Source: Candidatus Desulforudis audaxviator MP104C (lineage in GTDB: Bacteria; Bacillota; Desulfotomaculia; Desulfotomaculales; Desulforudaceae). Taken from it: 64,000 nucleotides of DNA. The stretch spans positions 1,752,501 to 1,816,500 of the forward strand of contig NC_010424.1 of NCBI RefSeq assembly GCF_000018425.1. The letters are read 5' to 3'. The first letter of the stretch is position 1; each line of letters begins with the position of its first letter. The position numbers and the translations under genes are program-made. The notes beneath the pieces were generated by a model. It was not told the origin of the DNA, made no database searches, and saw only the letters and a program-made list of their open reading frames with translations. This document shows positions 985-25,793 of the stretch, piece after piece.

Positions 985-3453
985 TTAGAGTACGGGCAGG
1001 GCCAGGACTTCCTCAAACCGCCTGTCCGTGTCCCCCTGCTCCGCCCGGAGCCAGGTCAAGATTTCCTCCACCGTATCCTCTTCGCCCATCCGGCTGTAAG
1101 CCGCCGCCCGCCATAGCTCACTCTCCCACTTTAGCTCCTTATTGGCCGCCGCGGCGCGCAAGAATGCCTCCGCCGGCTCGTATTCGCCCCGCAGGTAGTG
1201 GGCCTGTCCCAGCACCAGCTTTAGGGAAGCGCTCTGCTCCGCCGCCTCCCGCCACCGAGTCACGAACCGCTCCTCCAGCCGCTCAGCCTGCCGCTCCACC
1301 CGCCCGGGCAAGTCCAGCGCCTTTTGCACGTAATCCCGGGCCGCTTCCAGCTCGCCGCGCTCGATACCGTAACGGGCCGCCCCGATGTAGGTCCGGCCCA
1401 GGATTTCGTAATTGGGCAAATGCAGCGGGTTCGTCAGCAGCAGGGCCTCCGCCTCTGCCACCACCAGTTTGGGCTCCCGCAGGAGATGGTACACGTTCAA
1501 ATTGGAGGACCGGATCTTGATCCCGTAGGGTTCCAGCGCCGCTGCCCGCCGCGCGTACCCGATCGCCCGGTAACGCTTCACCGCGTCGTCCTCGGCCAGC
1601 GCCTGCACCGCGTAAATCTGCGCCAGGTCGCCGGGATAGGTGGCCGTAAACGGGTCCCGCCGGGCCGCCTCCTGCAGCAGCTCTGCCGCCTGGTCCAGGT
1701 CTCGGCCGTACATGGCCCGGGCCCCCTCCGCCCCCAGCCTTCCGGCGGCATACAGACTGGACGCCGGCACCACCAGCACCGCCGCCGCGACCGTACCGAT
1801 CACGGCCACCCCGATCAGCCGCCGGGGCCGGGCGGACACCTCCGGCCCGCTTTCCTCGCCCTTCCCCTTCTTCCGCCTGCGCCCCTCTCCCGGGGCAACA
1901 TTCCCGGAGGCACCAACAGCCAACCCCGCCCCCGCGCGCACCAGGCCCATATAGGCGAAAAGCAGGAGACCCATGGCCGCCATGGACAGATTGAAGTCGA
2001 AGAAGCTGTGCAACCCCAACCCCAACACCGCCACCGCCGCCGCCCAGGTGGACACCCACACCCCGTTCCGCGCCCCGTAACGCCACAGGCGCACCAGCAG
2101 GTAGACGAAGAAACCCCACAGGGCCAGGACGGCCGCAAACCCCACCGTCCCCGCCTCCACCCAGGTCTGGAAGAAGTAATTGTGCGTCTCGGTCGTCCAG
2201 TACGGGTAGGACTGGTACTGGTGGTACAGCGCGTTCCAGCCCCCGCCGCCCGCCCCGGTCACGGGGTAATCCCTCACGATGCGCAGCGCGTCCCGGTTCA
2301 TGGTCATCCGATCGGTGAAGCTCCGCTCCTCGCCGGAGATCGCGCCCGCCCGCACAAACACGTCCTCGGCCAGCAGGGCCCGTCCGCCCGCCGCCGGCAT
2401 GGCGGCGGAAGCATACATCAGGTACAAGGCCAGCACCAGACAGCAGTAGCCCACCCCGCCCCAGGCCACCAGCCGCCTGGTGGATTCGGCCACCGTCTCC
2501 CGGTTCAGCCAGACCCCCAGCCCATGGTACAAAGTCTGCAGCACCAGGGCCGCCGCTGCGCCGGCGCCCAGATACCAAAGCGCCGTGTTGGGCTCCCCGG
2601 CCTTGAGGGCGTCAAAAAAGCCCTTCGCCGCCAGCAGTCCGCAGCTCACCTGGATCAGGATGTGGTACGCCGCCCGCCAGCGGTAGGCCTCCGGCAGCAC
2701 GGCCGCGAAACCGCCCAGGATGAAGGGGTAGACCACCCAACTGCCCCGGGATTGGGTCCCCAAAACCACCGTCACCAGAACGGCGCCGCCCATCGCGAAG
2801 AAGAGCTTCGGCCACAGCCGGTCCGTCTTCACGCTCAAGGCCACACCCACCACGGTCAGCATGGCCAGGAAAATGCCCAGCGTGTTCGGATACTGCAACG
2901 TGGAAGCGATGCGATTGTGCATCACCCCCCCGGGGAACTCGAACAGCCCGGCGATTGATGCAATCCCGATCAGCGCCACCCCCAGGGCGCCGACGTACGT
3001 CACCAGGAGCACCCGGTCCAGGTCCCGCTCCGCGCGCACCGCCCGGAAAGCGATCCAGAAGATCATCACGTAACTGACGACTTTCAGCACCTCGCCCACC
3101 GCCGGCCGGATGTGCACCGCCGTCACCAGGGACAACAGGTAGGCCGCCACCAACGCCAGCATCGCCCATTCCAGGCCGGTGAACCGGAAACCCACCTCCC
3201 GGCGCAGCACCTGGTCGTAGACACACAGGGCGAACACCACGCCCACCAGGATATGTGCCGTCAGCAACTCCGGGGGAAAGAACAAGCCGCGGAAAAACGG
3301 CGCGGAAAACAGGATCACCCACAGCCCCAGCACAAAAAAGGGACGTAGATTAAGATGGAGGATGGGCGGAGTCCGCGGGGTGACGATCGCCTTATTCAAA
3401 GCCAATATGTTCATCCTCGTTGCATACTCGGTATATATTTCCTTGTTCGACAA
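985..3453 (-). CDS. O-antigen ligase/polymerase-like membrane protein with C-terminal TPR region
   Basis: A protein of 822 residues. Residues ~35-510 hold a dozen or so hydrophobic segments and a large loop, with the pattern GAGGGGWNALYHQYQSYPY followed by TETHNYFFQTWVEAG. This is typical of the Wzy/WaaL-type O-antigen ligase family. After a basic linker (~520-545) and one more membrane segment, residues ~575-815 form tetratricopeptide-like helices (for example LVLGQAHYLRGEYEPAEAFL). The fusion of a Wzy-like core with periplasm-facing TPRs is common in Gram-positive glycan loci. The start may be the TTG at 3453 or the in-frame ATG at 3414. It acts in the membrane, joining or polymerising lipid-linked glycan, with the Wzz gene directly downstream. 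Confidence 0.85.
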   Translation of the reverse strand: MSNKEIYTEYATRMNILALNKAIVTPRTPPILHLNLRPFFVLGLWVILFSAPFFRGLFFPPELLTAHILVGVVFALCVYDQVLRREVGFRFTGLEWAMLALVAAYLLSLVTAVHIRPAVGEVLKVVSYVMIFWIAFRAVRAERDLDRVLLVTYVGALGVALIGIASIAGLFEFPGGVMHNRIASTLQYPNTLGIFLAMLTVVGVALSVKTDRLWPKLFFAMGGAVLVTVVLGTQSRGSWVVYPFILGGFAAVLPEAYRWRAAYHILIQVSCGLLAAKGFFDALKAGEPNTALWYLGAGAAAALVLQTLYHGLGVWLNRETVAESTRRLVAWGGVGYCCLVLALYLMYASAAMPAAGGRALLAEDVFVRAGAISGEERSFTDRMTMNRDALRIVRDYPVTGAGGGGWNALYHQYQSYPYWTTETHNYFFQTWVEAGTVGFAAVLALWGFFVYLLVRLWRYGARNGVWVSTWAAAVAVLGLGLHSFFDFNLSMAAMGLLLFAYMGLVRAGAGLAVGASGNVAPGEGRRRKKGKGEESGPEVSARPRRLIGVAVIGTVAAAVLVVPASSLYAAGRLGAEGARAMYGRDLDQAAELLQEAARRDPFTATYPGDLAQIYAVQALAEDDAVKRYRAIGYARRAAALEPYGIKIRSSNLNVYHLLREPKLVVAEAEALLLTNPLHLPNYEILGRTYIGAARYGIERGELEAARDYVQKALDLPGRVERQAERLEERFVTRWREAAEQSASLKLVLGQAHYLRGEYEPAEAFLRAAAANKELKWESELWRAAAYSRMGEEDTVEEILTWLRAEQGDTDRRFEEVLALPVL

Positions 3454-6224: not shown

Positions 6225-6611
6225 TTACGGCAGCCTCGCCAGCAGCCGCACCACCGCGTCTTCCCGGTTGAACACGTCCCGCGCCGCCACGCGCACAACG
6301 CGATACCCTCTCGCTTCCATAAAGCTGTCCCGCACCTGATCCGCGTGTATTTGCTCCGGCGTGCAGTGAGCCCGTCCATCCACCTCAAGGTCGTACCTAG
6401 TCCCAAGCGGCGACACCACCAGAAAATCCAGCCGGTGACGCCCCTCTTCAAATTGGGGACGGTACCACAGACCGCTTTCCGTCAACAACTCCGCCATCCG
6501 CTCCTCTGCCGGCGATTCAAAAGGCGCGGTGGTGGCGCTCCCACCCCCGCCCTGCGCCACATAGTCCGCAAACTCCGCCAGATACCCGCCGGCCCCCGGC
6601 AAGCAGCCAAA
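6225..6611 (-). pseudogene. DUF559/Vsr-like endonuclease domain, out of frame with the SF1 helicase
   Basis: About 129 codons that continue the helicase gene in a different frame: GYLAEFADYVAQ is followed by a PD-(D/E)XK-type fold. A conserved Glu lies in FESPAEERMAELL, an Asp in HRLDFLVV, and YDLEVDGRAH is followed by RDSFMEARGYRVVRV. This arrangement is that of DUF559 (REase_MTES_1575/Vsr-like) domains, which are commonly fused to the C-terminus of SF1 helicases. The frame change falls in the GC-rich stretch ccgccggcccccggcaag at about 6590-6606. If the shift is real the nuclease is detached; if it is a sequencing error, the two parts form one ~1,030-residue helicase-nuclease. Confidence 0.78.
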
Positions 6612-9322
6612 TCTCCCACCACGTGCAGCACACCACGCGCCCGGGTAATCGCCACGTTCAGCAACTGGTCGGTCTGCGCCACCCACCGGCTCATCCGCAC
6701 GCTCAAGCCCTCCGCCACCACCGGCGAAAACACCATCACGTCACACTCGTCCCCCTGAAAACGGTGGGCCGTACCCACTGTTAACCGGCCGCGCACCGCC
6801 TCCCACCAAGGACGAGCTTGGATCATCTGCTCAATCTTTTCCATCTGCAGGCGAAAAGGAGTGACAACCCCAAAGCTCAGTTCGGCACGACCCTGCCTCC
6901 GTGTCAAGAGCCCCTCCCGGTACCAACGCTCCAGTAACTCAACCACGGCGCGCGCCTCAACCTCGTTCCACGCGCTCCTGGCACTCCCCGGCACATCCCC
7001 CCGAATGTCGTGCCAGAACACGCCCAGAGGCTGGCCGTCTAGCTTAGCCGCCAGAACCTTCAGCGCCGTCCGGACGACGAGGCGGCCCGCATAGAAAGTC
7101 TGGTTAGAAAACTCCACCACCGCCGGGTGAGAACGGTAGTGTTCGGCCAGGAACACAGGCTCGCGACCCACCTGCAGCACCGCGCCTTCCGCAGCGTCGT
7201 AAAGGGAACGCACCGCGTAGGACCACCCGGCCAACAAGTCCGCCACCCCGGCCTCTTTGGCCAACTCCGCCTCACGCTCAGGACGAATGGCACTGATATG
7301 CCGCAGTTGCCGGGGATCACCGATCACTACTGCCCGCCGTGCGCGATACAACAGCGGGATTGCCGACGCGATATCGCATTGACTGGCCTCGTCGATAATC
7401 ACCAAGTCAAATATGGCCGGTTTTAGCGGCATTGACCGCCGGGCGCTCAAGTTGGTCACGATCCAGACCGGCAGAATCCGGCCCAGCTTCTGGATACTCT
7501 CCGTGAACTGATCCAACACGGCCAGCCATTCCCGGTTGCCCTGAGTCCGCCATTGCCTTTCGCCCAGCGTGAAATAATTGCCCAGTTCGTGGCGGACCAC
7601 CCCCATACTTCCGGCCACCCGGCGCCTCCAGGCTTGGCGTAAATACTCCCTGGACAACTCTGCTTTCTTTTCTTTGAGGGCGTCGATACGCCGGGCGATG
7701 GCGGATGTCGGCGGCATTTGCGCCAACCGGCGCTCAGCATCCCCCACTTCTTTGGTAGCCGCGGCCCATTCCCCGAAGGAAACTAAATCCGCCAAGGCCA
7801 AAGCCAATGAAGGGTAACCGGTAGCGGACCTTACCCGCGCCAGCACATCCTCACCCACCTGCGGCGGAAAAAGCCCCGCCGCCGCCTGGATTTCCCTGAT
7901 CAGCCCCTGGACGAGACACCGCCCCAGCACCAACCGCCGCAGCCCCAGCCAAAAACCAAGTGGCCGTTCCCCCGCCAAGGCCTGCGCCTCATCCCGGCGC
8001 TCCCGCAGCCGATCCAGGGGCATAGCCGGCGGTTGTATTTCCCCTAGGGCGCTGACCGTCACCCAGTGCTCAGGCAGGACCGCCTGGATCCGCCGGCGGC
8101 GCGCCTCCGCCTCCAGCAACGACCGGGAACAGGCACGTACCCGTTCCAGTTCCGCCTGTGCCAGTGCTATATCGTTCTCCACAGCGGACATAGCTGACCC
8201 AACCGCCCCGGCGCCGGCACTGCCTTCGGACCCCGTGGCCGCCAAGGCCGCCAAGCGGTCGAACATCTCCGTCCGGCAGGCATCCACCCGTTCACGGTTG
8301 CCCAGCCGTAACACCCAGTCCTCACCCTCACCAAGAATCTCACGCAGACGTTGGTGTACCACGTCCACGGCCTTGTTGTTCTTGCTGGCAAACAAAACCG
8401 CGCGGCCGGCCACGGCGCAGCTGGCTAGAATATCAACGACCACCTGCGACTTGCCGGTTCCCGGAGGTCCTGTCACAACGGTGAACGGCATGGTCAGACC
8501 CGCCCTTACCGCTCGTTCCTGCTGTTCGTTGAGCGGCAGCACCGCAACGATCCCCCGCCGCTCCGCCTCCCCGTCCGCCCGCCGCATCCGGCCCGGCGCC
8601 GTCAGGTAACCCAGCGCGGTATCTGTGGCGCCGGCCAGTAACCGCTCGTGCGCGGCCAAAGCACCCAGCTCTTTTTTAAGCTGGAACGTGTAGCTGCTGC
8701 GGGTACTGCGGAACAAGACCGGCCGGTTTATCCACCGACCCCGGGGTGTCCTCCGGCCCGGAAAGGGATCGAGCCTCCCGGCGTCAAACTCAGCCGGACT
8801 GGCCCCCAAATACGCAAGGGCCGCCTCCAGCCGGGCGTCAAACGAACCAAAAGAGCCTTCCAGTTCCTCTTGCACGCTCTGCAGCTCTTCCGGCCGGGCG
8901 CGAAACAGGTGGTGGTTGACCTGAAGGGAACTTACCGGCCTCATGACAAAGCCGCCCCGGCGGTCCTCTTCCACCTCCACCTCCTGGACAAAAAGCGGCG
9001 AGAGATAATCCCGCTCATCCAAAAAGAAGGGATAGCCGTAGAAGAACCGCTCCGCTTCCCCCGCCTGAGCCAAGCCCCGGGTCAGCAGCGCGTGATCTGA
9101 TTTGTACCGCACCTGAAAGCGAACTTCCGGTGCCTCGGTGGCGAAAAGCAACTCCTGATCGTCCCAGGGAGAGATGAAAGAGCGGTGATGTTGAGTCAGC
9201 TTCAAAGTCAGGGAACGCAAGTCTTCGTCCTCGATACAGGCCAGGTAGAAGCGTAGAAGCCGACCCAAATCGTCCTGGCCAAGCTCCCGCTTTCCGGTAG
9301 GCTGGTTATGAAGGACTGACAC
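6482..9322 (-). CDS. SF1 (UPF1/Dna2-like) helicase, defence-associated; C-terminus frameshifted
   Basis: A 946-residue frame. After a ~270-residue N-terminal region it shows Walker A TGPPGTGKSQVVVDIL, motif Ia FASKNNKAVDVV, motif II VIIDEASQCDIASAIPL, motif III GDPRQLRHIS, motif V TAHRFQGDECDVMVFS and motif VI LNVAITRARGVLHVVGD. A long helical insertion lies between motifs Ia and II. This is the SF1B helicase type found in single-gene and multi-gene anti-phage systems with fused nuclease domains. The last ~40 residues, after GDLAACRG, are not family-like: the endonuclease domain continues in another frame (6225-6611). It is transcribed in line with the DUF1998 helicase after a 321-nt gap. Confidence 0.85.
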   Translation of the reverse strand: MSVLHNQPTGKRELGQDDLGRLLRFYLACIEDEDLRSLTLKLTQHHRSFISPWDDQELLFATEAPEVRFQVRYKSDHALLTRGLAQAGEAERFFYGYPFFLDERDYLSPLFVQEVEVEEDRRGGFVMRPVSSLQVNHHLFRARPEELQSVQEELEGSFGSFDARLEAALAYLGASPAEFDAGRLDPFPGRRTPRGRWINRPVLFRSTRSSYTFQLKKELGALAAHERLLAGATDTALGYLTAPGRMRRADGEAERRGIVAVLPLNEQQERAVRAGLTMPFTVVTGPPGTGKSQVVVDILASCAVAGRAVLFASKNNKAVDVVHQRLREILGEGEDWVLRLGNRERVDACRTEMFDRLAALAATGSEGSAGAGAVGSAMSAVENDIALAQAELERVRACSRSLLEAEARRRRIQAVLPEHWVTVSALGEIQPPAMPLDRLRERRDEAQALAGERPLGFWLGLRRLVLGRCLVQGLIREIQAAAGLFPPQVGEDVLARVRSATGYPSLALALADLVSFGEWAAATKEVGDAERRLAQMPPTSAIARRIDALKEKKAELSREYLRQAWRRRVAGSMGVVRHELGNYFTLGERQWRTQGNREWLAVLDQFTESIQKLGRILPVWIVTNLSARRSMPLKPAIFDLVIIDEASQCDIASAIPLLYRARRAVVIGDPRQLRHISAIRPEREAELAKEAGVADLLAGWSYAVRSLYDAAEGAVLQVGREPVFLAEHYRSHPAVVEFSNQTFYAGRLVVRTALKVLAAKLDGQPLGVFWHDIRGDVPGSARSAWNEVEARAVVELLERWYREGLLTRRQGRAELSFGVVTPFRLQMEKIEQMIQARPWWEAVRGRLTVGTAHRFQGDECDVMVFSPVVAEGLSVRMSRWVAQTDQLLNVAITRARGVLHVVGDLAACRGPAGIWRSLRTMWRRAGVGAPPPRLLNRRQRSGWRSC

Positions 9323-9643
9323 TTTCTGTCACACCCCTTGGGTTGTGCAAGTCAGCTCTATCAGACTAGTACTAGAATATGGTCTATCATATTAGACCTT
9401 AAGTCGACGCCCTGCAAAGTAGTGCAGGAAGATTATGGACCCCGGACCCGCTCCATTCGGAAGTGCAGCGCGACGGGATACTAATATACGAATAGCCAAC
9501 ACAGTAAGGCATTGGCTAACTACCGGCTGGAAAGAGCTTGGGTGAGTGTGCAATCCAGCGAAAGCGAGCTTGGCGCCGGAAGATTGACCTTCGCCGTCAA
9601 CCGCCCGAAATTTGGTAAGGTGTCCCCGGAATTGGGTGCCTGC
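9323..9643. other. 321-nt gap between the two helicase genes
   Basis: No gene is supported. The part at 9513-9640 ends in taaggtgtccccggaattggg, which resembles termini of REP-like/IS200-type elements seen in related genomes; this is a memory-based guess. The left part (9350-9410) is AT-rich, with ATATGGTCTATCATATTAGACC, and may hold the promoter for the SF1 helicase gene. Confidence 0.4.
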
Positions 9644-12600
9644 TCAAGCGCCCCAGCCGGCCAGGAGCTGTTCCAACAGGTCTTTCGCCGGCCCCCGGCG
9701 CAGTTCGTGGTGCGCAAACTGGTTCTGGTAGTTTCGCAGGCAACCGTAACAGCTCTCGTCGCTCCCGCAACCGCAGCTCCCGGTCACCCTTCTGTACGCC
9801 GCTCGCAGGCAGTCGTGCATGGTGTTCTCCTCCTCCAGACGCGCCACCAGACCGGCGCCCCCGGGCACGTTGTCGTAAAGGATGATCGGCAAAATCTGGG
9901 CGCTGTCGCCCGGAAGGACCACGGCGCTGACGTCGTTGGGCAGCACCTCCAGCACCTCCGCCGCGCCGCCGGCCAAAGCATAGGCCAGCGAGTAGGCGAA
10001 CCAGACCTCATTCATTCCGGCAGGGGCGGGAAAACGGAAACGGACCTGCACCACGTCGGTGACAAACAGGTGGCCCAAGGCCCTCCGCTGCAGCGCGCCC
10101 CCACACCGCTCACCAAACGGTGTGCGGTGCACCTTCTCCTGCTTCAGAAAACCCGCGCCGCAGGCCGCACAGATCCAAAAACCCCGGCCCCGGCGTCCCT
10201 CACAGAGCACGCCCATTCCGCCCGGACGGGCTCTGCTGACCGTAAGCAGGGGATCAGCCGTCGGCATGGCCAGGCTTTCCCGGTCCGGCCCCTGGAACCC
10301 GGCAAAGAAGGGCCGGGTGCTGAACATCCGCACCGGACGGCGCTGCGGTTGTTTGGGCTTTTCCGGCGGCGCGACGAAGCCGAACCGGGGAATTAAGAAC
10401 CGCTCCTCCCCTCCCGCCGCCCCGCAACACGACGGCGGCGGTGTTTCCGTCGGCTTCCAAACGTCGTACCTTTTGTGTTCCCGGCACCTGCGGTAGCACC
10501 ACACCTCCCATTCCCGCTCGGCCACGCGCTTCACTCCGTATGAGGTCCATAGGAGTTTGTCGGCCACCAGTTTGCTGGTGGGCGCGAATTCGGCGATGGC
10601 CACCTTGAGGTCCCGCTGCAACTGCAGGTTCTCGCCCTCGCTGGTCCGGCCCAACCTGGTGTCTAGTTCGACCACGTCCACCGGAAAACCGTATTTGGGG
10701 ATCACCGCCTTGCGGGACAAGAACGAGAGAACATCCTCGCGGGCGATGGTTTCCGCCCGGTCTTTGGCCCACTCCGCTGTGGGGTGATCGCGCCTCGCGC
10801 TGGCGCGCGCCTCCAGGGCGTGTAGCTTCCGGTAATCGTCGGCCACCTCCGCCTCCGCCAATAGGAGCCGGGGCTCCTCCCGCTCCAGGGATTCCCTGGT
10901 GAGCAAATCAATCCATTTTCCGTCGCGCAGGCCAAGCACGGCGTGCAACTCGCCTTCTGCGGGCACGATCCTTCGCAGTATCGCTTCGATCTCGCGGCGC
11001 CGTTCTTCCAAGAAGGCGTGCAGGTCAGCCACCAGGCTCGGGCGCTGCAGATCCACGCACAGCTTTTGCACCGAGTCGAACCGCTCCCGATATTCCCGGA
11101 AAAAGCTGCTCAACGCCACCGCCGCCACGTGGCGCAACACGATCTTGGGGTTGGTCAGCCGCAGCACCGGCGGTTTGGTGGAACCGTGCAGGATCTGCTC
11201 GGGATGGGCGAAATGGTAAAGGTCGTGCGGCGCACGCCGGCAGTAGGTGAGGGCGATTCCCGGCCGCCCCGGACGGCGTCCCGCCCGCCCGACCCGCTGG
11301 GCGTAATTGAAGGCCTCCGGAGGGGTGTTGCGCAGAAAAACGGTGTCCAAATCGCCCAGGTCGACTCCCAGTTCAAAGGTGGTGGAACAGCTCAGCAGGT
11401 GGATCCGGCCTTTCTTGAAGGCCTCCTGGTACTCCCGGGCTTTTTTGCGCCCCAACTGCGCCGTGTGTTCCTCGACCCGTAGCCTTCCGGGGAACGCACT
11501 CTGGTAGAGGTAACGGTAATGGTTGTCGGTGAGTTCACCCGCTGCGGCGCGGACCATCCGCCCCGGGCAGGCGGGCCGGGAGCAAAGACCGGCCACAGAC
11601 CACCGCCCCACGCGTCCGCACATATCGCAGCGCCAAAGCGTCGCCTCCGGCCGGAAAACGTGGAAACGCCACCAGGCGGAGTTCAGTCGCCAGGCATTGT
11701 TGGCCGCCGGCAGCAGCAACCGGTAGGCGGTTTCCGGCGCCTTGCGCTCGTACTCCAGCACCGCCTCCCAGATCCGCTGCAGGCAGAGGCCCGCCTCTCG
11801 GACGGCTTCCCCGTTATCCAGGCCGCGCGCCATCAGGATCTTTTTGAGCAGGCGCACCCGCCCGCTCCGGGCGCCTTCCCAACTGCACACCCCTTTTTCC
11901 CCGCGCGGTGGCCCCAAACGCACCCGCTTTTGGGGCCGCTTGAGATGCAGATCGTCCCAGGTCACCAACCCGGCGGGTCCGTCCAGTGGTAACTCCACCG
12001 CCCCCTGGTCCCGGAGCAGGTTAAACAGCACCTGGAGCAATTCCAGAGCCTCTTCGGCCCCCAGCGTCCAAGGGCCGGCCCGTAAAAACTCCATCGGGCC
12101 GTACCAGTCAGGCCAACGCAGGGACCAGTAACCCAATCCCACTCCTTCCAGGGAGATCCTTTTCTCCTCGGTCAAGAACTCCCGGCAAACCGCGATGCCG
12201 GCCTCCCGCCGCAACTCCGTCTCCGACGCGTAAGGCGCGGCCAGGTGGCGGCTGCGCAGCAAGCGGTAGTATTCATCCGCCAAGTCCGCCAGGGAAAGCC
12301 CCTCCCGCGTCCGCCAGCCCAGCGCGCTCCCGGCTTGCCAAACCAGGTTTCTGGTCAGCAGGTCCCGGTAGGTCCGGTCCAGGTACCAAGAAAAGAAGGC
12401 CGCCTCTTGCCGTGAGTCGGCGAAGGCCAGGATTTTTTTCCGGTCGGAGGGCAGCTCCTGGTACAGCGTGGTGGCGATCACGGTATGCGGGCCGTCGGTA
12501 CCGTGCACCACTTCCCGTACCGGGTCGGGCGCCTGATAGCCACAGGCGCTGCAACGGGGAATTTGATCGTCGCCTTCCCGCGCCGCTTCCTCTCTTTCCA

Positions 12601-14413
12601 CCGCGAGTATCTCCGCGTGGTCGCAAAGCGGTGCCAATCCCTCCAGCCAAATGGCCCGGCACTGCACACACAGCGCATAACGCTGCCGGTCTTGCGGAGC
12701 AGCCGATTCGTCATCCTCTGCGTCTGATTCGACAGATTGGGGTGTTTCCAGGGGCCGAAAAAACACCGCCCCGTATTCGGGGTGGCTCGGATCCCGCACG
12801 GCTTCCACCAGTCGGCCCCGCCGGCCGTCACCCTGTATCCGGCCTACCAAATAATGTTGCCCACATTCGCGGCAGAGGGCCACCTCGAAAACGCCCGCCT
12901 CCGGAGAGGCGGCGCGTTCCACCAGGACCCGGCGTCCGCCCCGGTAGCGGACAAAGGCGCCGTCCAGGGAGCGCAGGAAAAAATGGTAGCGCGCGGCCAA
13001 CACCGGCGGCCCCGCGTGCTTGCTCCGTCCCGCGCCCGCCGTCGCAGCCGCGGTTTGCATCAGCAGCACCACCAGCATCCCCAAGGCCCCAACCCGCGCC
13101 GCTTCATCATCGATCTCAGGGAATAGTTCCCGGGCAATGGCGGCCACGGGCCGCGGCTCGCCGACCCCGAGTTCCCGTAACCGGTGCGCGCGCCGGTCGT
13201 GGGCCAGCAGGCGTCCGCACACCGAGTCCGGATCCTCTTCTGGTGCACCAGCATCCGTCTTCCGGCGCGCCAGTCCCGCCAGTCGTTTTCTCGCCCCGTC
13301 CGTCCCCTGGTTCAAAACCTCCAGCATTAACGCGTAGTCCGCCGGCGTCAGGTCGTACCATGTTTTCTCCGACGCCCTTTCCTCCCCCGCCGGTGCGGGC
13401 GGCTTTCCGGTGATCACGTCCTCGGGTCCAAACGCTTCTCCAAAAAGAGTGGTCGCAAAATGTGCGGTCGCCTCCCGATCCTGCTCGCCCCCCAAGAGGG
13501 TGGCGCTGGTGGCCAGACACCGGAAGGGACCTTCCTTGCCTCCGTCCCGCAGGCGCTCCTTCAGGCGCCGGATCAGCATGGCCATCTCCATCCCCCGCGC
13601 CCCCCGGTACTGGTGCGCTTCGTCCAGCACCAGGTAGGTCCAGCGCCGCGCACCGGTCCCGGCGAACAAGGGGCTGTCCGCGGGGCGGATCAGCAGATAC
13701 TCCAGCATGGAGTAGTTGGTCAGCAGGATGTGCGGCGGCGTCTCCCTCATTTCCGACCGCAACACCAACTCGCCCGGCAGCCGATACTCGGCGAGATGCT
13801 TTTGCGCCTCCCGGCGCGTATCCCGCTCATCCTCGGGCGTGTCACCGATATACTGACCAAAGGTGAAACGAAAAGGAGAGCCCTCCTCTTCCAGACGGCG
13901 CGCTATTTCCCCCAGCCGGTCCCGCTGGTCGTACGCCAGCGCGTTCATCGGGTACAAAATCATGGCCCTAATCCCGGGGCCGAGTTCCCCTTTTCGAAAC
14001 TCCCGGTACAAATGGAACAGGATCGGGAGCAAGAAGGCCTCGGTCTTGCCGCTGCCCGTCCCGGTGGCCACCACCACATTGCGCTCTCGAAAGACCGCCC
14101 TGATGGCCTCCTCCTGGTGTCGGTAAAGCGGTCGCGTCCCCTGAATGGCTTCCAAGAAACCCTTGTCCGGCGGTTCTCCCAGGACATCCTCCAAGAGCCG
14201 TTCCGCTCCCACCCCCAATGGGTAGGGCCGGGCCACCTCCAGGTACGGCCCCCGCACCAGGTTGGCAGCGGCCAGGGCCTGGTTGAAAGAAGCGCGCAGC
14301 AAGGGATCCCGAAAGTAGAAGGTGGTGTAAAGGTAGCGGCGGTATCGCTTCGCCACTTCTTCCAGCAGTCCCAGAGGAGAGAACGCCGCGTCCACTGTCA
14401 TTTGGCTTTCCAT
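9644..14413 (-). CDS. Large DExH-box helicase with C-terminal DUF1998/MZB-type region
   Basis: A 1,589-residue protein from an ATG preceded by TAAGGAAA. Helicase motifs: Walker A VATGTGSGKTEAFLLPI (~115), LYPMNALAYDQRDRL, TNYSMLEYLL, DEAH in LVLDEAHQYRGARG (~270) and LATSATL. Cys clusters (CRECGQHY, CVQC, CSACGY) lie around 540-620. The second RecA domain follows with KILAFADSRQEAAFF, LLSCSTTFELGVDLGDL and motif VI QRVGRAGRRPGRPG. The C-terminus has the DUF1998-type cysteine cluster SCGCGSDESCYGCLRNYQNQ. DUF1998 helicases are known in DISARM and Druantia defence and as housekeeping YprA-like enzymes. The size, inserts and neighbours fit a defence role. Its start lies 5 nt from the stop of the large upstream gene, so they form an operon. 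Confidence 0.88.
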   Translation of the reverse strand: MESQMTVDAAFSPLGLLEEVAKRYRRYLYTTFYFRDPLLRASFNQALAAANLVRGPYLEVARPYPLGVGAERLLEDVLGEPPDKGFLEAIQGTRPLYRHQEEAIRAVFRERNVVVATGTGSGKTEAFLLPILFHLYREFRKGELGPGIRAMILYPMNALAYDQRDRLGEIARRLEEEGSPFRFTFGQYIGDTPEDERDTRREAQKHLAEYRLPGELVLRSEMRETPPHILLTNYSMLEYLLIRPADSPLFAGTGARRWTYLVLDEAHQYRGARGMEMAMLIRRLKERLRDGGKEGPFRCLATSATLLGGEQDREATAHFATTLFGEAFGPEDVITGKPPAPAGEERASEKTWYDLTPADYALMLEVLNQGTDGARKRLAGLARRKTDAGAPEEDPDSVCGRLLAHDRRAHRLRELGVGEPRPVAAIARELFPEIDDEAARVGALGMLVVLLMQTAAATAGAGRSKHAGPPVLAARYHFFLRSLDGAFVRYRGGRRVLVERAASPEAGVFEVALCRECGQHYLVGRIQGDGRRGRLVEAVRDPSHPEYGAVFFRPLETPQSVESDAEDDESAAPQDRQRYALCVQCRAIWLEGLAPLCDHAEILAVEREEAAREGDDQIPRCSACGYQAPDPVREVVHGTDGPHTVIATTLYQELPSDRKKILAFADSRQEAAFFSWYLDRTYRDLLTRNLVWQAGSALGWRTREGLSLADLADEYYRLLRSRHLAAPYASETELRREAGIAVCREFLTEEKRISLEGVGLGYWSLRWPDWYGPMEFLRAGPWTLGAEEALELLQVLFNLLRDQGAVELPLDGPAGLVTWDDLHLKRPQKRVRLGPPRGEKGVCSWEGARSGRVRLLKKILMARGLDNGEAVREAGLCLQRIWEAVLEYERKAPETAYRLLLPAANNAWRLNSAWWRFHVFRPEATLWRCDMCGRVGRWSVAGLCSRPACPGRMVRAAAGELTDNHYRYLYQSAFPGRLRVEEHTAQLGRKKAREYQEAFKKGRIHLLSCSTTFELGVDLGDLDTVFLRNTPPEAFNYAQRVGRAGRRPGRPGIALTYCRRAPHDLYHFAHPEQILHGSTKPPVLRLTNPKIVLRHVAAVALSSFFREYRERFDSVQKLCVDLQRPSLVADLHAFLEERRREIEAILRRIVPAEGELHAVLGLRDGKWIDLLTRESLEREEPRLLLAEAEVADDYRKLHALEARASARRDHPTAEWAKDRAETIAREDVLSFLSRKAVIPKYGFPVDVVELDTRLGRTSEGENLQLQRDLKVAIAEFAPTSKLVADKLLWTSYGVKRVAEREWEVWCYRRCREHKRYDVWKPTETPPPSCCGAAGGEERFLIPRFGFVAPPEKPKQPQRRPVRMFSTRPFFAGFQGPDRESLAMPTADPLLTVSRARPGGMGVLCEGRRGRGFWICAACGAGFLKQEKVHRTPFGERCGGALQRRALGHLFVTDVVQVRFRFPAPAGMNEVWFAYSLAYALAGGAAEVLEVLPNDVSAVVLPGDSAQILPIILYDNVPGGAGLVARLEEENTMHDCLRAAYRRVTGSCGCGSDESCYGCLRNYQNQFAHHELRRGPAKDLLEQLLAGWGA

Positions 14414-14418
14414 TTTCC

Positions 14419-17400
14419 TTACACCTCAGCGCCGTTTTCCAATGCGGCGGCCAACGCCAGTTCCCTGGCCGCCAGTTCCGCCACCAGGTCATCGACCCCC
14501 GGGACACCGGCGTCGGAAGGGGCCACCGCAATCGGCAACGGGTTGGTTTGGCTGTCACCGAGCACGTGGTAACACTCCCGCGCCCAGGGATAGTGCTGCC
14601 GCCCCATGGTCAGCAGCGCCCTTACATCCCACAACAGCGTGAGCTCCGCCTCAAACGGCCGATACCGGATCTCAACCTGCTTACAGCCTTTGGGGTAGTG
14701 CTCACGATCCCAGACCTGTTGACTGGGGAGGAGGCGGCCCCGCTGGGGGCAGGCTGGATTTGTACAGACCACGCCCTTCTCCATTTCGACTATCACCGCC
14801 TCACCCTGCAGCCCCCGCAGCCGTAGCTTCTTGCTTTGGTTGTGGACGGAGATTTTCGTTTCCAGTTCATCCGGTCCCTCCCGCCGGCATTTCAAGACCT
14901 GCCGGGAAACGTGCCCCGTCAGCACCATGTCCTTCATCCGCCCGTCCAGGCTGCGCAGCTTCAGACCAAGCCCTGCCGACACCGCCGGGGCCCCTCCAAG
15001 CGCCGCCGCCCACACCCCTCTCCGGTCCGCTGCGCCCCCGGGCCACGGCACTTCCAGGGGCGCCGGCCGGTCCAGAATCCTTGCCTGGTAGGCCGCGGGG
15101 CTGCTGTCCGCGAAGACCGCCAACCAGTGAAACCCGTAGCGGGAGGCGTCGCCCGTGCCGCCGCCGGCTTCCGGTGCGGCGGTCCGGCCGGGCACCGCTA
15201 TGCAAAAACCGCCGTCCGCACCGACCGCACCGGTGCCCCGGGCGACCACGACCGCTTTGCCCGTGATGCCCAGCAGCACGACCGTAACGGCCACCCCCGC
15301 GGGACAATTGGCCGCTTTGCCCCGGACCACCGGAGCCTCCGACTCCCAGGTGCAGGACAAATCCCGAATGTGCGGGCGCCCGTCATCCAGATGCATAAAG
15401 AAGCCGTTGGCGCCGGTTCTAAGGGACGCGTCGGACTGCAAAGTTTCCACCCCGGCCTCCGCGCCTCTGAACCGCAACAGGTAGGGTCCCGCCGGTACTG
15501 TCCGCCCCTGGGCGGCCAGCATCAGCGTCGCCGCGCCGTCCGGGATCTCCCATTCCAGCGCCGGCTCCCACGGGGTCCACGCCTTGAAAAGCTCCAGCCG
15601 GCGTCCCGGCACCCGGCCCCTGTCGGTCCACCGCGCCAACCACAACGGCTCGGTGCCCCACAGCGGGCACACCCACCGCACGGATGGCTCGACCACTTCC
15701 CAGCGGTACCTTAAGGCAAGGAGCGCACCGCGGCGCACCGGCCTTCGGCGGTGGTCATGGACATCCAGCGCCAGTGTGCGCACGGCCCTGTCCCCGGTCC
15801 GAGAAAGGCGGGTTGGATGATCGACGACGAAGCGGAAATGCTGTTCCGACTGCTTCTCCCCCGCATAAACCCGGGGCTCGTCGTCATCCGACACCAGAAG
15901 ACAACCGCCCCAGCGCCGCGTCGGCGGCAGCCGCACGTCCACGGCAAACCGGCCCGGAGACGCCTCGCCGACCCATATCTCGCGAAACGTCGTCGTCCAC
16001 TGGTCGGTCTCCTGCGTGGCGCCGCCCCCCGCAGGCCGCCACCACACCCGCGGCAAGGCCAGCTCGATGTCCAGGGAGTGCGGCATCGCTTCAGGACTGC
16101 CCTGAAACAAATAGGTCCCCGCCACCGTTTTCGCCCCGACGTCAACGGTAAACTCCACGACCTCGTCCGCCACCTCCGTCACCATCGCCGGCGGCTTGAC
16201 GGCAAAGTGCGTGTCCGGTGCCGTTATCACGGTGCCCGTTACCGATGACCCTTGTGCCTGGTCCGCGGGCAGCAACAGGGCGGGCGCAAAGTCGTAGACA
16301 AACTGGGGAATGACGGTCAGAGTCAGGGGGTAAAGCGCGCCATCGGGAGCCCGCAGGCGGAGGACGTAGCGCCCCACGGGCTCCAGGCCAAGCAAGGCGG
16401 CGGAGGCCAGATCCAACACCGCCTCCAGCGCGCCACCGGCCCGCTCTCCGGTGGTTATCCCGGACAGCTCAGTCAAGGCTTGCCACTCCATCTGATCCTC
16501 ACCCGCAGGTTCGCGCCTCACGGCCACCGACCAACCCCTGAGATCGGAACGGTTTCGCAGGGCCAAGACCACGGCGGGTAGGCCCTCCGCTTCATAAACC
16601 GGCCCGCCGCCGGCCACCGCCACACCGGCAATGGTTTTCCCGCCCCGCAGGAAAGGCGCCCTTAGGCTACCCAAACCCGGCAGGAACCCGATTGTCGCGG
16701 CGCCCACCCCCTCGAGCCACAGCCGCAATAGGGTCCGGTCTGGGCGTTCCAGGGGAGCAGCGAATTCGTAGAGCGGCACCCTGACCAATCGCAGGGACCC
16801 CGCCTGCCGTGCCGGAAACGCCCGGCGGTCATCCGGATCGAGGCCGATATATACCTTCGTCACCGCGCCCAGCCGCTTCCCCTCCCCGGCCCAACGGAGC
16901 CAAAGCACCTTGTCCGAGGTGGGCCGGAACCAGTCGCGCGCCAATTCCACGGGCCGATCCGTCCATGCCACCTCTCCCGGCTCCCGGCCTTCGGTGTCGA
17001 CGCCCCACCACACCCGTTCAAACACCGCCCGTATGGGTACCGGCCGCCCACCGGTCGCCGTCAGCCGCAAAAGCAGGTGATCAAACCGGGGATCCGGCGG
17101 CAAATCAACACGCAGGCCCGTTGGCGTGCCGGTGCACAGCGGGGGGCGGGCGTCCGCCTCGGCCCCTTCGGCCGACTCCAGAGCGTAAGCGCCGTCGCCG
17201 ACGATCTCCACCGCGGTGGCGCCGTGGCCGGCGGGCGGGGGGAAAACAGGTGCCTGCTCCGGAACCATGCGTACCTCACGCAGACCCGGCAGACAGCGAA
17301 AAGCCAAGCGCTCCCTTTCATATCGCTGCCGGTCGTACAGCACCACCCAGTAACAGTGGCTTTCCGGGTCCACCGGCACAACCAGCCCACCGTCCGGCGA

Positions 17401-20019
17401 ACGAGCGTCCATCTGCAGCAACTGTTCCCCCCGCCGTCTCGTCTGCCTGTATAACCGCGTCACGGTCCCCACTCCCTGCCAGCACTCCGGTCTGGCGGGA
17501 ATCAGCCGGGGCGCGCCGCCGAAAACCGGACCAAGCTCATCCAGGTTGTCAGACCACCCGGGTTCCCCCGCTAGGAAGAACTCTTGAGCACCCGCGTTCA
17601 GCGCGAGTTTTTCCCCATCGGGGAGCACGAAGGTAATCCTTGCCGCCGCGCGCTCCGTGCGCCAGTGGTGGGCCACATACCCCGGCAGCGCCACCTTTTC
17701 CGGCGGCGGCGTGGCCGGCTCGTCGTCGGCTTGCTCGCGACTCCATTCTTCCGGGACGACCACCAGCACTTGTCCCCGCGGTATGCGCCGCACCGCCGGC
17801 AGCGGACCATCCTGGTCGTCCGAACCCCGAAAGACCAGACAGGGTTGGTGCAGTTGCCAAAACGCTTGCAGGTCCAGCGTCACCAGCACACCCTCTTCGC
17901 CCGCCACTTCCACCGCACCGTCCAAACCGGCAAGCGGCCAGCATCTCCAGGGGCGAGAGCGGGAAACAAGCTTGTGCTCGTTGTGCAGGACCACCAGGTC
18001 CGGTCGGTTCCACAACTCCGCCGGCGTTTCCACGCCTACCATCCACTTGCCGTTTTCGCGCCAGCACACAAGGCGCGGCCGCGGAAGGCGCAGCGCCGTC
18101 GTACAGAGTGCACGGCCTTCATCCTGCCACCAGCGGCCAAAAACCTCCCAAACCCGTTGATGGCGGTATGTCTGCGGCCATTGCGCCGGTTTGTGCGCCT
18201 CGCCGCCCAGGGCCGCTAGCAGCAACTGCACGGCCGGCCAGACGAACCTCTCCGCCGCAGGCCCGCCGTAATGCAGAAGACGCTGTATCGGTTTGTCCAC
18301 ATATGACAGCGGTGGTACGGGAACCCGGGCTTCAAGGGATCTGACTTGCCGGTCCAGGCCGTTGAGGGCGTCCTGCGCCGCATGCATCTCCTCGTCCAAG
18401 GTCCCGGCGTCAAAGGTCTCGGCGTCCACGGGCCGTCCCAGCGCCTCATCCAAGTCGCCCTTCAGTACGGCCAGCCGCCGGCTATACCGGGCTTCCACCT
18501 TGTCAAGGACGCCCAGGATTTGTGGCCACTCGGGCCACGCCGCAGTCACCTCGTGGTCCAGATGCTCTTTCAGCCACTCAATCAGTTGCTGACGTTGTGC
18601 GCGTTTGTCGGCGAGTTCCGCTTCCAGCGCGGCCGGTTGGCGGGCAACATGTGCCTCCGTCGCGGACGCTGTTGCCTGTCGCTTTTTGGCATCGCTGATT
18701 AAATCAAGCCAGCGGCGGGCGGCCGCCCGGACATCCTCACACAGGGCCGAGAGGTTCGCGGAGCCAAGAAACTCATCGGTTCGGCTCCTTAGCACAGCGG
18801 CTTGGCCCATCAGCCGCACCGGGCAATGGCGGGTGATGTCTAGCCGCAGCGTCACCAAAACGTCTTTAAGATTGTTCCACCGCGCCAGTAGCGCCTCGTA
18901 CCCCCGCAACAGTTCCCGCGCCTGCTCGGCGAGCCCGCCGCCGGCCGGCGGTGTGCCGCCGACCATCGCCGGGACCGCTTGAAAGGCTAAAACCGTCCGC
19001 CGCAGCCATGACCAGTGCTCCGGCTCCTGCTCACAAATCAAGCGTCGGTAGAGCTGCCGTTCCCAGTCCGAAACACCCGGATCCGTGCCGAAAACGGCCA
19101 ACCGTCCCCTGAGCCGCTCGCGGTCCATAAGCAGGACCGTCAATTCCGCTTCGACAGCGGACAAACGTTCCTCAATCTGCCGCAGTGAGGGTTCGCTGGC
19201 GATGAGGTGCCGGTCTTGATCCGCCAGAATCTTCCGGTCACGAGATGATCGGTCCTGGTCCTGTAGAAGCCGGTGGCGTTCCCCCTCCCGTCGCACGATC
19301 TCATCGTCAATATCCAGAAGCTCGGCCACTCGGCGACGCTGCTCCTGAAGGCTTGTCAGCCGTCCGGACAAGGCACGGTACTCTTCGAGAAAGCGCCGAC
19401 GGGCCAGCAATGTCCTCTTGGCCCCCAGCAAATGCTCCAGTCTGCGTCGATCCTCGGATTGCAGGGCGCGCCCCCTCTCCTCCCGGAGCCGCCCGAGTTC
19501 CAGGAGCACTCCCTCTTTCTCCACCACATCGCGGGCCACGAAACGCCGCCAGACCACCTCCCGGAAGAACTCCGGCAAGCACGCGTCGGGGATGCCGGTG
19601 TGAAAAAGAATAGGGGTCACATAACGGAGGCCTTCGGGATCGGTTTCCGCACGCAAATCATAATCGTGCAGGGCCTTGAGAAAGGCCGCACCCAACGCTT
19701 CTTCGTCCGCACGGCTACTAATGCCGGTAATTTCCCGCACCGCCGGCCAATACGTCCCGTCCCGGTAACCAGCTATTCCCCGCCACACAAGAAAAACAGC
19801 CAAGAAGAGCGGAGCCCGCTGGACCAGAAACTGCACCCATCCGCGGGGGTTTTCCTTGATCAGGTTTTTGACCAGGGACTCGATTAATGACACATCTGGT
19901 TGGGTTAAGGGAAGTTCGTGCAGAAAAAGGGGTTCGCGGTGGTGGTGGCGGCCGTGGTCTTCAAGTGCAGCGGCCAACCTCGACTCGCATTCGGCGATAC
20001 TTTGACAGTCCGCAAGCAT
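14419..20019 (-). CDS. Giant protein of unknown family, partner of the DUF1998 helicase
   Basis: The reading frame is open from 20208 (1,929 residues), but I prefer the ATG at 20019 (1,866 residues), because a TATACA-like -10 sits at 20072-20077. Residue numbers here count from 20208. Regions seen: 65-270, helical, with the pattern RAPLFLAVFLVWRGIAGYRDG and RYVTPILFHTGIPDACLPEFF; 280-420 and 560-660, long charged coiled coils (for example QSEDRRRLEHLLGAKRTLL); ~690-1690, a run of beta-rich segments full of Trp and aromatic residues, resembling repeated sandwich or Ig-like folds; 1730-1929, a region with CTNPACPQRG that may bind zinc. No ATPase, nuclease or methylase motif is visible. It lies 5 nt upstream of the helicase gene. 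It is most likely a scaffold or sensor for the helicases (inference). I do not recognise a named family. Confidence 0.75.
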   Translation of the reverse strand: MLADCQSIAECESRLAAALEDHGRHHHREPLFLHELPLTQPDVSLIESLVKNLIKENPRGWVQFLVQRAPLFLAVFLVWRGIAGYRDGTYWPAVREITGISSRADEEALGAAFLKALHDYDLRAETDPEGLRYVTPILFHTGIPDACLPEFFREVVWRRFVARDVVEKEGVLLELGRLREERGRALQSEDRRRLEHLLGAKRTLLARRRFLEEYRALSGRLTSLQEQRRRVAELLDIDDEIVRREGERHRLLQDQDRSSRDRKILADQDRHLIASEPSLRQIEERLSAVEAELTVLLMDRERLRGRLAVFGTDPGVSDWERQLYRRLICEQEPEHWSWLRRTVLAFQAVPAMVGGTPPAGGGLAEQARELLRGYEALLARWNNLKDVLVTLRLDITRHCPVRLMGQAAVLRSRTDEFLGSANLSALCEDVRAAARRWLDLISDAKKRQATASATEAHVARQPAALEAELADKRAQRQQLIEWLKEHLDHEVTAAWPEWPQILGVLDKVEARYSRRLAVLKGDLDEALGRPVDAETFDAGTLDEEMHAAQDALNGLDRQVRSLEARVPVPPLSYVDKPIQRLLHYGGPAAERFVWPAVQLLLAALGGEAHKPAQWPQTYRHQRVWEVFGRWWQDEGRALCTTALRLPRPRLVCWRENGKWMVGVETPAELWNRPDLVVLHNEHKLVSRSRPWRCWPLAGLDGAVEVAGEEGVLVTLDLQAFWQLHQPCLVFRGSDDQDGPLPAVRRIPRGQVLVVVPEEWSREQADDEPATPPPEKVALPGYVAHHWRTERAAARITFVLPDGEKLALNAGAQEFFLAGEPGWSDNLDELGPVFGGAPRLIPARPECWQGVGTVTRLYRQTRRRGEQLLQMDARSPDGGLVVPVDPESHCYWVVLYDRQRYERERLAFRCLPGLREVRMVPEQAPVFPPPAGHGATAVEIVGDGAYALESAEGAEADARPPLCTGTPTGLRVDLPPDPRFDHLLLRLTATGGRPVPIRAVFERVWWGVDTEGREPGEVAWTDRPVELARDWFRPTSDKVLWLRWAGEGKRLGAVTKVYIGLDPDDRRAFPARQAGSLRLVRVPLYEFAAPLERPDRTLLRLWLEGVGAATIGFLPGLGSLRAPFLRGGKTIAGVAVAGGGPVYEAEGLPAVVLALRNRSDLRGWSVAVRREPAGEDQMEWQALTELSGITTGERAGGALEAVLDLASAALLGLEPVGRYVLRLRAPDGALYPLTLTVIPQFVYDFAPALLLPADQAQGSSVTGTVITAPDTHFAVKPPAMVTEVADEVVEFTVDVGAKTVAGTYLFQGSPEAMPHSLDIELALPRVWWRPAGGGATQETDQWTTTFREIWVGEASPGRFAVDVRLPPTRRWGGCLLVSDDDEPRVYAGEKQSEQHFRFVVDHPTRLSRTGDRAVRTLALDVHDHRRRPVRRGALLALRYRWEVVEPSVRWVCPLWGTEPLWLARWTDRGRVPGRRLELFKAWTPWEPALEWEIPDGAATLMLAAQGRTVPAGPYLLRFRGAEAGVETLQSDASLRTGANGFFMHLDDGRPHIRDLSCTWESEAPVVRGKAANCPAGVAVTVVLLGITGKAVVVARGTGAVGADGGFCIAVPGRTAAPEAGGGTGDASRYGFHWLAVFADSSPAAYQARILDRPAPLEVPWPGGAADRRGVWAAALGGAPAVSAGLGLKLRSLDGRMKDMVLTGHVSRQVLKCRREGPDELETKISVHNQSKKLRLRGLQGEAVIVEMEKGVVCTNPACPQRGRLLPSQQVWDREHYPKGCKQVEIRYRPFEAELTLLWDVRALLTMGRQHYPWARECYHVLGDSQTNPLPIAVAPSDAGVPGVDDLVAELAARELALAAALENGAEV

Positions 20020-20071
20020 TCCCAGCCCCGCCCCCCCTGCTGAACCAAAAGTATCTTTCTTCGGTATTTTA

Positions 20072-20077
20072 TGTATA
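20072..20077 (-). promoter_or_regulatory. Possible -10 element of the helicase operon
   Basis: TATACA read on the minus strand, in an AT-rich patch within otherwise GC-rich DNA, ~53 nt before the ATG at 20019. The matching -35 (GAATTG, 17 nt upstream) is poor, so the assignment is tentative. Confidence 0.35.
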
Positions 20078-20360
20078 ATTCGTGCAAGAAACACCAATTC
20101 CTGCCTGACGTCCCCCGGCCATAACTTCGGGGACACCATACCCGCCCAAACCGGAAGCCGCGCCGCTTCCGTTTGAGGAGAAAAGGAGAACAACACCGAA
20201 CGCCCCAAGCCCGAGCCTCCTTACGACTTGCACCCGGCGTTTTGGCGCAAAATACTGGCAAACCTTGCCCGCCTGTGTTAATATAAGGCCAAAAGGTTGC
20301 CAGGAAGTCCCAAGACATTTGCTTGGCGCCACGGCGCGCACGCCGGGAGGGATCACTACA

Positions 20361-20485
20361 ATGACAGCGGACAAGCCGGTGCTGGAGCTGATCCGCACCG
20401 CCCTCGGCCGCCTGCGCACCTTTGCCCACATGTCCGAGGCGGAGTTCACCGCCCATGCTGACCACTTCGCCATTGCCGAAATACA
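20361..20485 (+). pseudogene. HepT-type (DUF86) toxin, N-terminal fragment
   Basis: ATG at 20361 after a GGGAGGG ribosome site. The 40 codons to about 20482 read MTADKPVLELIRTALGRLRT then MSEAEFTAHADHFAIAE, the first helices of DUF86/HepT proteins. The frame then leaves the family and stops at 20552. The catalytic RX4-6H motif is missing, so this is a dead fragment. The break coincides with the end of the opposite-strand UvrD-helicase fragment. Confidence 0.72.
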
Positions 20486-21084
20486 TAAGTCATTCGGAGC
20501 GCTGCAATCAGCTTTGGGTTATTTCTCAGTAGAAATGCAGCCAAGCGATTGAGCATCGGAAAGGTCAGGCTTGGCCGTTCCGGGGGAAGAGCTAGTTGTT
20601 CACGCCACCAACGCCGACTAAGATGGCGAATTAATGGGGTTACCTCCGCACCGTCACATGGAAGTGGGTATCCATGAGAGTATAAGTCAAAAAGCTTCTT
20701 AATCTGGTGGCTTTGAAGCCCGTTAATGTCTAGTGGTGCTTGCCCTGTTGGAACTCCAGCAGCTTCGAGCCAAACCCGCATCTCATCCACCGGCAATGAT
20801 CGGACCATCACTTCATACCCGGCAGTGGTTCGCCAATCTGCGTGCAAGCCCAGCATAAAACGGTCAACCAGGCCCTTTGCAAACTTATCGAGTGTAAACG
20901 AGTCAAAACGCCGGGCGCGATCACCACACCGCTTCTGCACTCGCTCACCGAGATTTTTCGCTGCATCCCGTTTAAAGGAGATAGCCAGAATGCGCCGCGG
21001 GGTAGGACACAGACCGGTTTCCAGGAGGTAACACGCACGCTGCGCCAGAAGTTCCGTCTTCCCCGCCTCGGGGCCGGCAACCAC
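20446..21084 (-). pseudogene. UvrD-like helicase fragment (Gabija GajB-like)
   Basis: A 212-residue frame with a UvrD/Rep N-terminal domain: Walker A AGPEAGKTELLAQRACYLL, ILAISFKRDAAKNLGERV (motif Ia) and RFDSFTLDKFAKGLVDRF. It breaks off at LIAALRMTY, just before where motif II (DExQ) is expected, and continues as unrelated residues. The Q-motif start is also missing: the same frame extends only to a TGA near 21130. It lies next to a TOPRIM-nuclease fragment, which is the GajA-GajB gene order. It is non-functional as a helicase. Confidence 0.75.
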
Positions 21085-21689: not shown

Positions 21690-21872
21690 TCAGTCCCCCC
21701 GCCACTCCAGGGCCTTTTTTTGCAGTTCCAATGAGGTATACTGTTCACGAAAGTCCTTGAGGGCGCCAGCCCAATCTTGGCGCAACCTTTTCCCGGTTTT
21801 CTTGGCCCGTTTTTCTAACAGAAAACGGATAAAGTCTTCGGCCTCCCTTTGAAGCTCGGGAGGGAGCGCTCC
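21690..21872 (-). pseudogene. VapB-like antitoxin (DUF2281 type) lacking its N-terminus
   Basis: Readable family sequence of about 58 codons: LPPELQREAEDFIRFLLEKR, RQDWAGALKDFREQYTS and QKKALEWRGD at the end. This is the DUF2281/VapB type that normally precedes PIN toxins, as it does here (21531-21686). The usual first ~10 residues are replaced at about 21870 by sequence that reads, on the plus strand, as part of an amidase gene. Confidence 0.72.
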
Positions 21873-21884
21873 GCTGACCACCAG

Positions 21885-22004
21885 CCCGCCTGTCCGGGCC
21901 GGCACCTGGACCTGGCCGCCGTCCGCGCCGCCCTGGCCCCGGCCAACACCCCGCCCGCCCCGCTCTACCGGGTACAGGTGGGGGCGTTTCGCGAACGCGC
22001 CCTC
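21885..22004 (+). pseudogene. Amidase-SPOR gene fragment
   Basis: Forty codons, ACPGRHLDLAAVRAAL... then LYRVQVGAFRERAL, correspond to the end of the amidase domain (Cys ligand region) and the start of the SPOR repeat of the intact gene at 5165-5686. Similarity is partial, so this is a paralogue or diverged copy, not a recent duplication. Both ends are cut. Confidence 0.75.
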
Positions 22005-22043
22005 TTCGGCCAAATAGGAGATGTGAAAAATCCCGCACCCCTC

Positions 22044-22073
22044 TTGACCCGCCTGTCGTGCCCGCATTACACT
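22044..22073 (+). promoter_or_regulatory. Sigma-A-type promoter for mntA-hepT
   Basis: TTGACC (22044-22049) and TACACT (22068-22073), 18 nt apart, lie 43 nt before the first possible start of the nucleotidyltransferase gene. Confidence 0.55.
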
Positions 22074-23895: not shown

Positions 23896-23911
23896 CAACA
23901 ACCTCCTAAAT

Positions 23912-24022: not shown

Positions 24023-24114
24023 GCGTCAACACAGTGCAAAGCCGTGTAAAACCAGGCAACAACCAGCCAATCCGCATGCTTCAGCCGATCTATCGTTCCC
24101 GCAAACTGATAGTT
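24016..24114 (-). pseudogene. Possible HEPN-like protein fragment
   Basis: A minus-strand frame reads NYQFAGTIDRLKHADWLVV then AWFYTALHCVDAQL. The FYTALHxVDA pattern resembles small HEPN-like proteins of Firmicutes and archaea from memory. Only ~33 codons remain, abutting the MurJ fragment. Assignment is weak. Confidence 0.35.
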
Positions 24115-25783: not shown

Positions 25784-25793
25784 AAGCCTCCTG

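Follow-up and report, generated by a model that had tools for sequence, protein, structure and literature searches.

The window analysed here, a stretch of 64,000 nucleotides (NC_010424.1, positions 1752501-1816500), comes from the genome of Candidatus Desulforudis audaxviator MP104C, a bacterium of a deep gold mine (PMC4406082) that NCBI places in the Desulforudaceae, Bacillota. It contains two adjoining genes, for a giant protein (P0001) and a DruE-type helicase (P0002), which probably make up a Druantia-family anti-phage module. The pair would belong to a divergent III-like (III-B-like) branch, with P0001 as the equivalent of DruH. Experiments have shown that DruH-DruE systems protect against phages and that tail-type proteins activate them (PMC13192584, PMC13316683), and protection by P0001 and P0002 would be expected by analogy. 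The helicase branch is already outlined in a published tree (Bell et al. 2025, PMC12458937). What is new here is an unusually large partner of a III-like DruE that is not recognised by PADLOC, rather than a new system of three genes.

A preliminary description of the window had pointed to three very large minus-strand open reading frames (ORFs) in a row. These are present, with 5 nt between the giant gene and P0002, and 321 nt between P0002 and the ORF of a superfamily 1 (SF1) helicase, P0003. The coordinates of all features are given in Table 1. The giant frame is open up to a TTG at 20208 (ORF 14419-20208), and the start common to its homologues is the ATG at 20019, from which the predicted size of about 1,870 residues agrees with the length found.

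Table 1. Features of the Druantia-like locus and its surroundings, in window coordinates (aa, amino acids; AF2, AlphaFold 2; HMM, hidden Markov model; Ig, immunoglobulin; Fn3, fibronectin type III)
Feature	Position	Strand	Basis
P0001, giant partner, 1866 aa, putative DruH-equivalent, proposed phage sensor/regulator	14419..20019	-	ORF, homologue-shared start, adjacency to DruE
P0001 conserved alpha-helical N-terminal domain, 'FLVW.GI..Y..G.YW ... RYVTPIL.H.GIP'	19534..20019	-	alignments, HMM controls, AF2 of L117 homologue
P0001 helix-rich low-proline stretch, probable coiled coil, ~aa 181-590	18250..19479	-	composition; weak JetC/LmuB/SMC coiled-coil matches in homologues
P0001 middle beta-rich region, common to closest relatives L100, L031, L040, L032	16687..18282	-	36% identity to L100 over aa 1-1111
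P0001 C-terminal module, ~aa 1118-1866, predicted tandem Ig/Fn3-like beta-sandwiches	14422..16668	-	HMM giantC, AF2, Foldseek
Zinc-knuckle-like Cys/His motif (C-x4-C ... H ... C) near P0001 C-terminus	14683..14766	-	homologue conservation
P0002, DruE-type YprA helicase (superfamily 2, SF2), 1589 aa	9644..14413	-	PADLOC, Pfam, tree, motifs
P0002 DUF1998/MZB zinc-binding domain, residues 1476-1559	9737..9988	-	Pfam PF09369 E=4.8e-11
P0003, UPF1-like SF1 helicase ORF, 946 aa, frameshifted	6482..9322	-	Pfam AAA_11/AAA_12
Out-of-frame continuation of P0003, Vsr/DUF559-like nuclease domain	6225..6686	-	Pfam MTES_1575 E=2.8e-10
Truncated UvrD/AAA_19 helicase fragment just upstream of giant gene	20446-21084	-	
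DUF5615 (PIN-like) + DUF433 pair, probable toxin-antitoxin module	23288-24207	-	

The identity of P0002 is clear. Pfam finds DEAD, Helicase_C and DUF1998/MZB domains, as expected of the DUF1998-type DExH helicase that had been proposed. In PADLOC it scores highly against DruE1 (E=2.3e-154) and DruE3 (3.4e-140), with DruE4 below DruE1-3, whereas the match to DrmA reaches 6e-15 only and those to DpdJ and BrxH are likewise far weaker. The helicase core motifs are intact (GTGSGKT at 118, DEAH at 264, SAT at 303 and QRVGRAGR at 1039, with CGCGSDESCYGC at the C-terminus) and all of the DUF1998 cysteines are present. The protein stops 30 aa after DUF1998, and no nuclease domain C-terminal to it is recognised by Pfam. 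The closest solved structures by sequence are the large helicases 9tu7 (2108 aa) and 9wae (1970 aa), which outrank the MrfA YprA structure. Phylogenetically, P0002 groups with all 29 giant-linked helicases tested in a single clade (support 100) that is distinct from the references of type I, type III-A and cyanobacteria; the tree also included ARMADA-like references. The nearest neighbour of P0002 in this tree is from Desulforudis sp. SURF_60 (60% identity). Bell et al. describe a distinct Druantia III-like branch with helicases mostly lacking a nuclease, III-A and III-B being named in their figure (PMC12458937). Judged by this published description, and not by placement beside the III-B reference GIH50614.1, the P0002 clade fits the III-like/III-B branch. 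The DruE type of the helicase gives good support, by homology, to the defence role that had been proposed for the locus.

The pairing of the two genes is conserved. Giant homologues were found in 28 of 398 Bacillota genomes, the window's own included, and also in Chloroflexota and Acidimicrobiia (Actinomycetota). A DruE-like gene is present in 44 of the recovered loci. In 43 of these the giant lies immediately 5' of it, in the same orientation; the single exception has a DruE fragment of 133 aa. Giant profiles flagged 38 of the paired loci, and the other five (L031, L032, L040, L044 and L051, in our locus numbering) were flagged by BLAST to P0001. There is no conserved third gene family in the giant/DruE loci. 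These 43 loci thus have the layout of Druantia type III, which needs only two genes, DruE and a partner that directly precedes it. Partner sizes range from 961 to about 1930 aa, and the Acidimicrobiia partners, at 1102-1136 aa, have the size of known DruH. Plasmids yielded no relatives of the giant, and viral contigs none of either DruH or the giant N-terminus. The giants as a whole diverge too far for one alignment of them to serve in a scan of the collection.

P0001 itself has no sequence match in Pfam, PADLOC or the PDB, and the first impression of a giant without a recognisable catalytic motif agrees with the former two. Residues 1-1111 correspond to nearly the entire partner of the closest relative, L100, which ends after the shared part with a short Cys-rich tail, where P0001 goes on with a 745-aa module. 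This Ig-like C-terminal module is missing in L100, L031 and L040 and present in a distant Bacillota subclade (HMM giantC, E=1e-195, the window sequence itself being part of the model). AF2 predicts it to be composed of tandem beta-sandwiches, with a predicted local distance difference test (pLDDT) score of 79. For the L117 homologue, the AF2 model is alpha-helical at both termini with a long beta region between them (pLDDT 69). Foldseek matches are mostly multi-Ig, Fn3 and complement/macroglobulin proteins, with low global template modelling (TM) scores that indicate the fold type only, and the viral fold library likewise returned only generic Ig/Fn3 proteins. In the zinc-knuckle-like motif, C1815 and C1820 (long-frame numbering) are kept in 16-17 of 19 homologues. 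In a tree of the C-terminal module the window copy is inside a Bacillota cluster (84/86), the approximately unbiased (AU) test keeping the alternative (p 0.24). The module may have been gained by recombination or repeatedly lost elsewhere, and this test does not decide between the two. The giant homologue of Chloroploca (L113, 9920-13957) ends in a domain that matches PADLOC MzaA (residues 1106-1336, E=1.7e-57), so the C-terminal modules vary among the giants. Another homologue (L049, 9085-13050) matches the PADLOC model C3a139 'HKD+Snf2' over almost its full length (3.8e-77), hence the giant family had been captured earlier under a name without a link to Druantia.

Several weak similarities connect the giants to DruH. 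An HMM of the giant N-terminal domain scores 28.8 and 25.2 bits with cyanobacterial DruE partners, 10.5 with a type I partner, 9.7 with another cyanobacterial partner and, weakly, 3.3 with E. coli DruH, whereas no score among 677 control proteins exceeds 1.8 bits. In a profile comparison with ten DruH proteins the N-termini align with a score of 27.4, where 300 shuffles reach at most 24.9. The Ig-like regions of giants and DruH align separately, although weakly, and colinear with the N-terminal match. DruH is described as having three Ig-like domains after an N-terminal region, with a key regulatory surface at residues 63-137 (PMC13192584). These residues are the segment that aligns with the conserved giant N-terminal domain, and the AF2 plan of the giants, an alpha N-terminus and then Ig/Fn3-like arrays, is as described for DruH. 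From the N-terminal HMM, the profile alignments, the predicted plan and the coincidence with residues 63-137, homology of P0001 to DruH is likely, short of proof.

A number of points weigh against this assignment. The PADLOC DruH models, DruH3 included, match neither P0001 nor any of the 20 homologues scanned, while in a positive control they do match E. coli DruH. Alignment to true DruH by hhalign gives E of about 0.003-0.005 for a single comparison and a probability of about 10%, which is only suggestive. The solved DruH structure, 9tud, is not among the fold hits, from a library that probably predates it. The loci were retrieved with the giant as the query, which establishes that the giant comes with DruE and does not cover the reverse direction. 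In addition, a PDB profile search gave nothing for DruH, and neither did DruH family searches of Bacillota and Actinomycetota genomes, although control genomes were positive in only one of the three DruH family searches, so absence is not proven. The positions of Mycolicibacterium smegmatis DruE/DruH mutants, mapped onto actinobacterial homologues, gave partial matches only and were not used. The end-to-end match to a named system against which the locus was to be checked was therefore obtained in part: the first two genes fit the two-gene DruH-DruE plan, but the giant escapes all of the PADLOC DruH models.

An unlikely variant is that the giants make up a separate family of partners, having only the N-terminal, DruE-facing domain in common with DruH and other Druantia partners, with Ig-like sensor arrays swapped as modules. 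P0001 would then be a double-headed sensor, its second array of 745 aa gained by recombination with another Druantia lineage. Somewhat less likely again is that the giant is unrelated to DruH, forming with its helicase a distinct two-gene class with only the DruE-type helicase in common, in the way that types I and II of Druantia are distinct from III. The failure of the DruH models, the separate helicase clade, and the very different size with an added coiled coil are as expected of such a class. However, the weak DruH matches at the N-terminus and Ig-like region are colinear, the N-terminal domain is common to other Druantia partners, gene order and predicted alpha/Ig-like plan are the same, and the short Acidimicrobiia homologues are of DruH size. 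A decaying, non-functional defence island is improbable. P0003 is frameshifted, a UvrD fragment adjoins the giant gene, and several relatives carry split giant or DruE genes, but the P0001 and P0002 frames are uninterrupted from end to end and the helicase motifs are intact.

The known systems compare with the pair as follows. Type III (DruH-DruE, III-A in E. coli) also has two genes ordered partner-DruE, a DruE-type helicase, and a partner with an alpha N-terminus and Ig-like domains, here predicted by AF2. The III-A DruE has a C-terminal PLD nuclease that P0002 lacks, and P0002 is outside the III-A clade; P0001, with its probable coiled coil and extra Ig-like module, is larger than DruH (about 1100 aa). 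The III-like/III-B branch, as described by Bell et al. (PMC12458937), is alike in being a separate and mostly nuclease-free DruE clade beside III-A. Druantia type I and the cyanobacterial DruE operons have a DruE-type helicase and a partner with the N-terminal domain of the giant, but have several further genes (DruA-D, or a pair of partner genes) and fall in other helicase clades. Type I DruE also carries an inactivated Vsr domain according to the same source (PMC12458937), unlike P0002. Druantia I and II (DruABCD, DruMFG) do not correspond, the giant having no Pfam or PADLOC match and only the pair being conserved, nor does Druantia IV (DruL, DruF, DruE4), as there is no DruF or DruL match among the genes scanned and DruE4 scores below DruE1-3. 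For DISARM and ARMADA, there is no methyltransferase, SNF2 or split DrmA/DrmB gene in the cluster, and no third gene is conserved in the homologous loci. The cyanobacterial plasmid operons (L062, L063 and L127) form their own clade and have at least two partner genes, the larger with the N-terminal domain of the giants. On a Roseomonas plasmid (L124, 1824-11073) a DruE-like helicase is accompanied by a 1325-aa protein matching neither DruH nor the giants, possibly another Druantia-like partner.

In Druantia III, DruH senses late phage structural proteins and DruE loads on intermediates containing single-stranded DNA (ssDNA), so that circularisation or replication of phage DNA is blocked (PMC13192584, PMC13316683). 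By analogy with these systems, the Ig-like domains of P0001 may recognise a protein made late in phage infection, for instance one of the tail or baseplate, and its alpha N-terminal domain may face or regulate DruE. On sensing, P0001 would activate P0002, which would load on ssDNA-containing phage replication intermediates, translocate 3' to 5', and block circularisation and replication of the phage DNA. Since P0002 is without the PLD nuclease of type III-A, any cleavage of DNA would come from P0001 itself or a host nuclease, or there may be no nuclease at all. With a nuclease-free DruE, the question arises how Druantia can halt phages when DruE itself makes no cuts. The N-terminal domain recurs in partners from Druantia I, from cyanobacterial and from III-like systems, and perhaps in DruH, which suggests that a shared element controls DruE; phage sensing would then fall to the variable Ig-like arrays. 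As the partner is missed by a standard defence-gene catalogue, systems of Bacillota, Chloroflexota and Acidimicrobiia would go missed or mislabelled. The locus adds to the evidence for phage pressure in a low-biomass deep-mine ecosystem.

The third gene is outside the conserved module. It had been described as an SF1 helicase with a fused nuclease; the AAA_11 and AAA_12 helicase domains are there, but the nuclease is out of frame, in a separate overlapping ORF. P0003 is considered frameshifted because its relatives (L095-L098, 1086-1452 aa) read helicase and nuclease in a single open frame. The break is near a G-run around 6590, and may be a true frameshift or an assembly error. The PDC-S37, Mokosh and ProA models have an SF1 helicase domain like that of P0003 and are matched over the helicase core, not as whole models, with PDC-S37 aligning to the nuclease part too. 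That giant, DruE-like helicase and SF1 helicase-nuclease cooperate as one system, with P0003 supplying the nuclease, is highly improbable. In its favour, P0003 shares the strand of the pair, no site resembling a promoter or terminator was found in the 321-nt gap, and a nuclease-free DruE would make a nearby nuclease gene convenient. Against this, P0003 homologues are in none of the giant/DruE loci and are common as free-standing genes, even in the one genome (G070) that has both a P0003 relative and the pair, about 85 kb apart. The undescribed three-gene system was rejected on this basis, the linkage across several phyla extending to the DruE-like gene and not to the SF1 helicase. P0003 is a separate, disrupted defence gene neighbouring the Druantia-like pair in the same island. 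Least credible of all is a housekeeping DNA-repair helicase of YprA/MrfA type with an incidental neighbour; the YprA family includes such members (PMC12458937), but the DruE and 9tu7/9wae matches, the patchy occurrence, the fixed partner and the defence-island neighbours all argue against it.

Of the remnants reported next door, the UvrD fragment and the DUF5615/DUF433 genes are both real. A DUF2281 gene (21690-22067) is near the latter pair. Genes for O-antigen ligase, MurJ and GDP-mannose dehydratase (985-3453 and 24155-27041) are on either side of the defence block, which is within a polysaccharide gene region.

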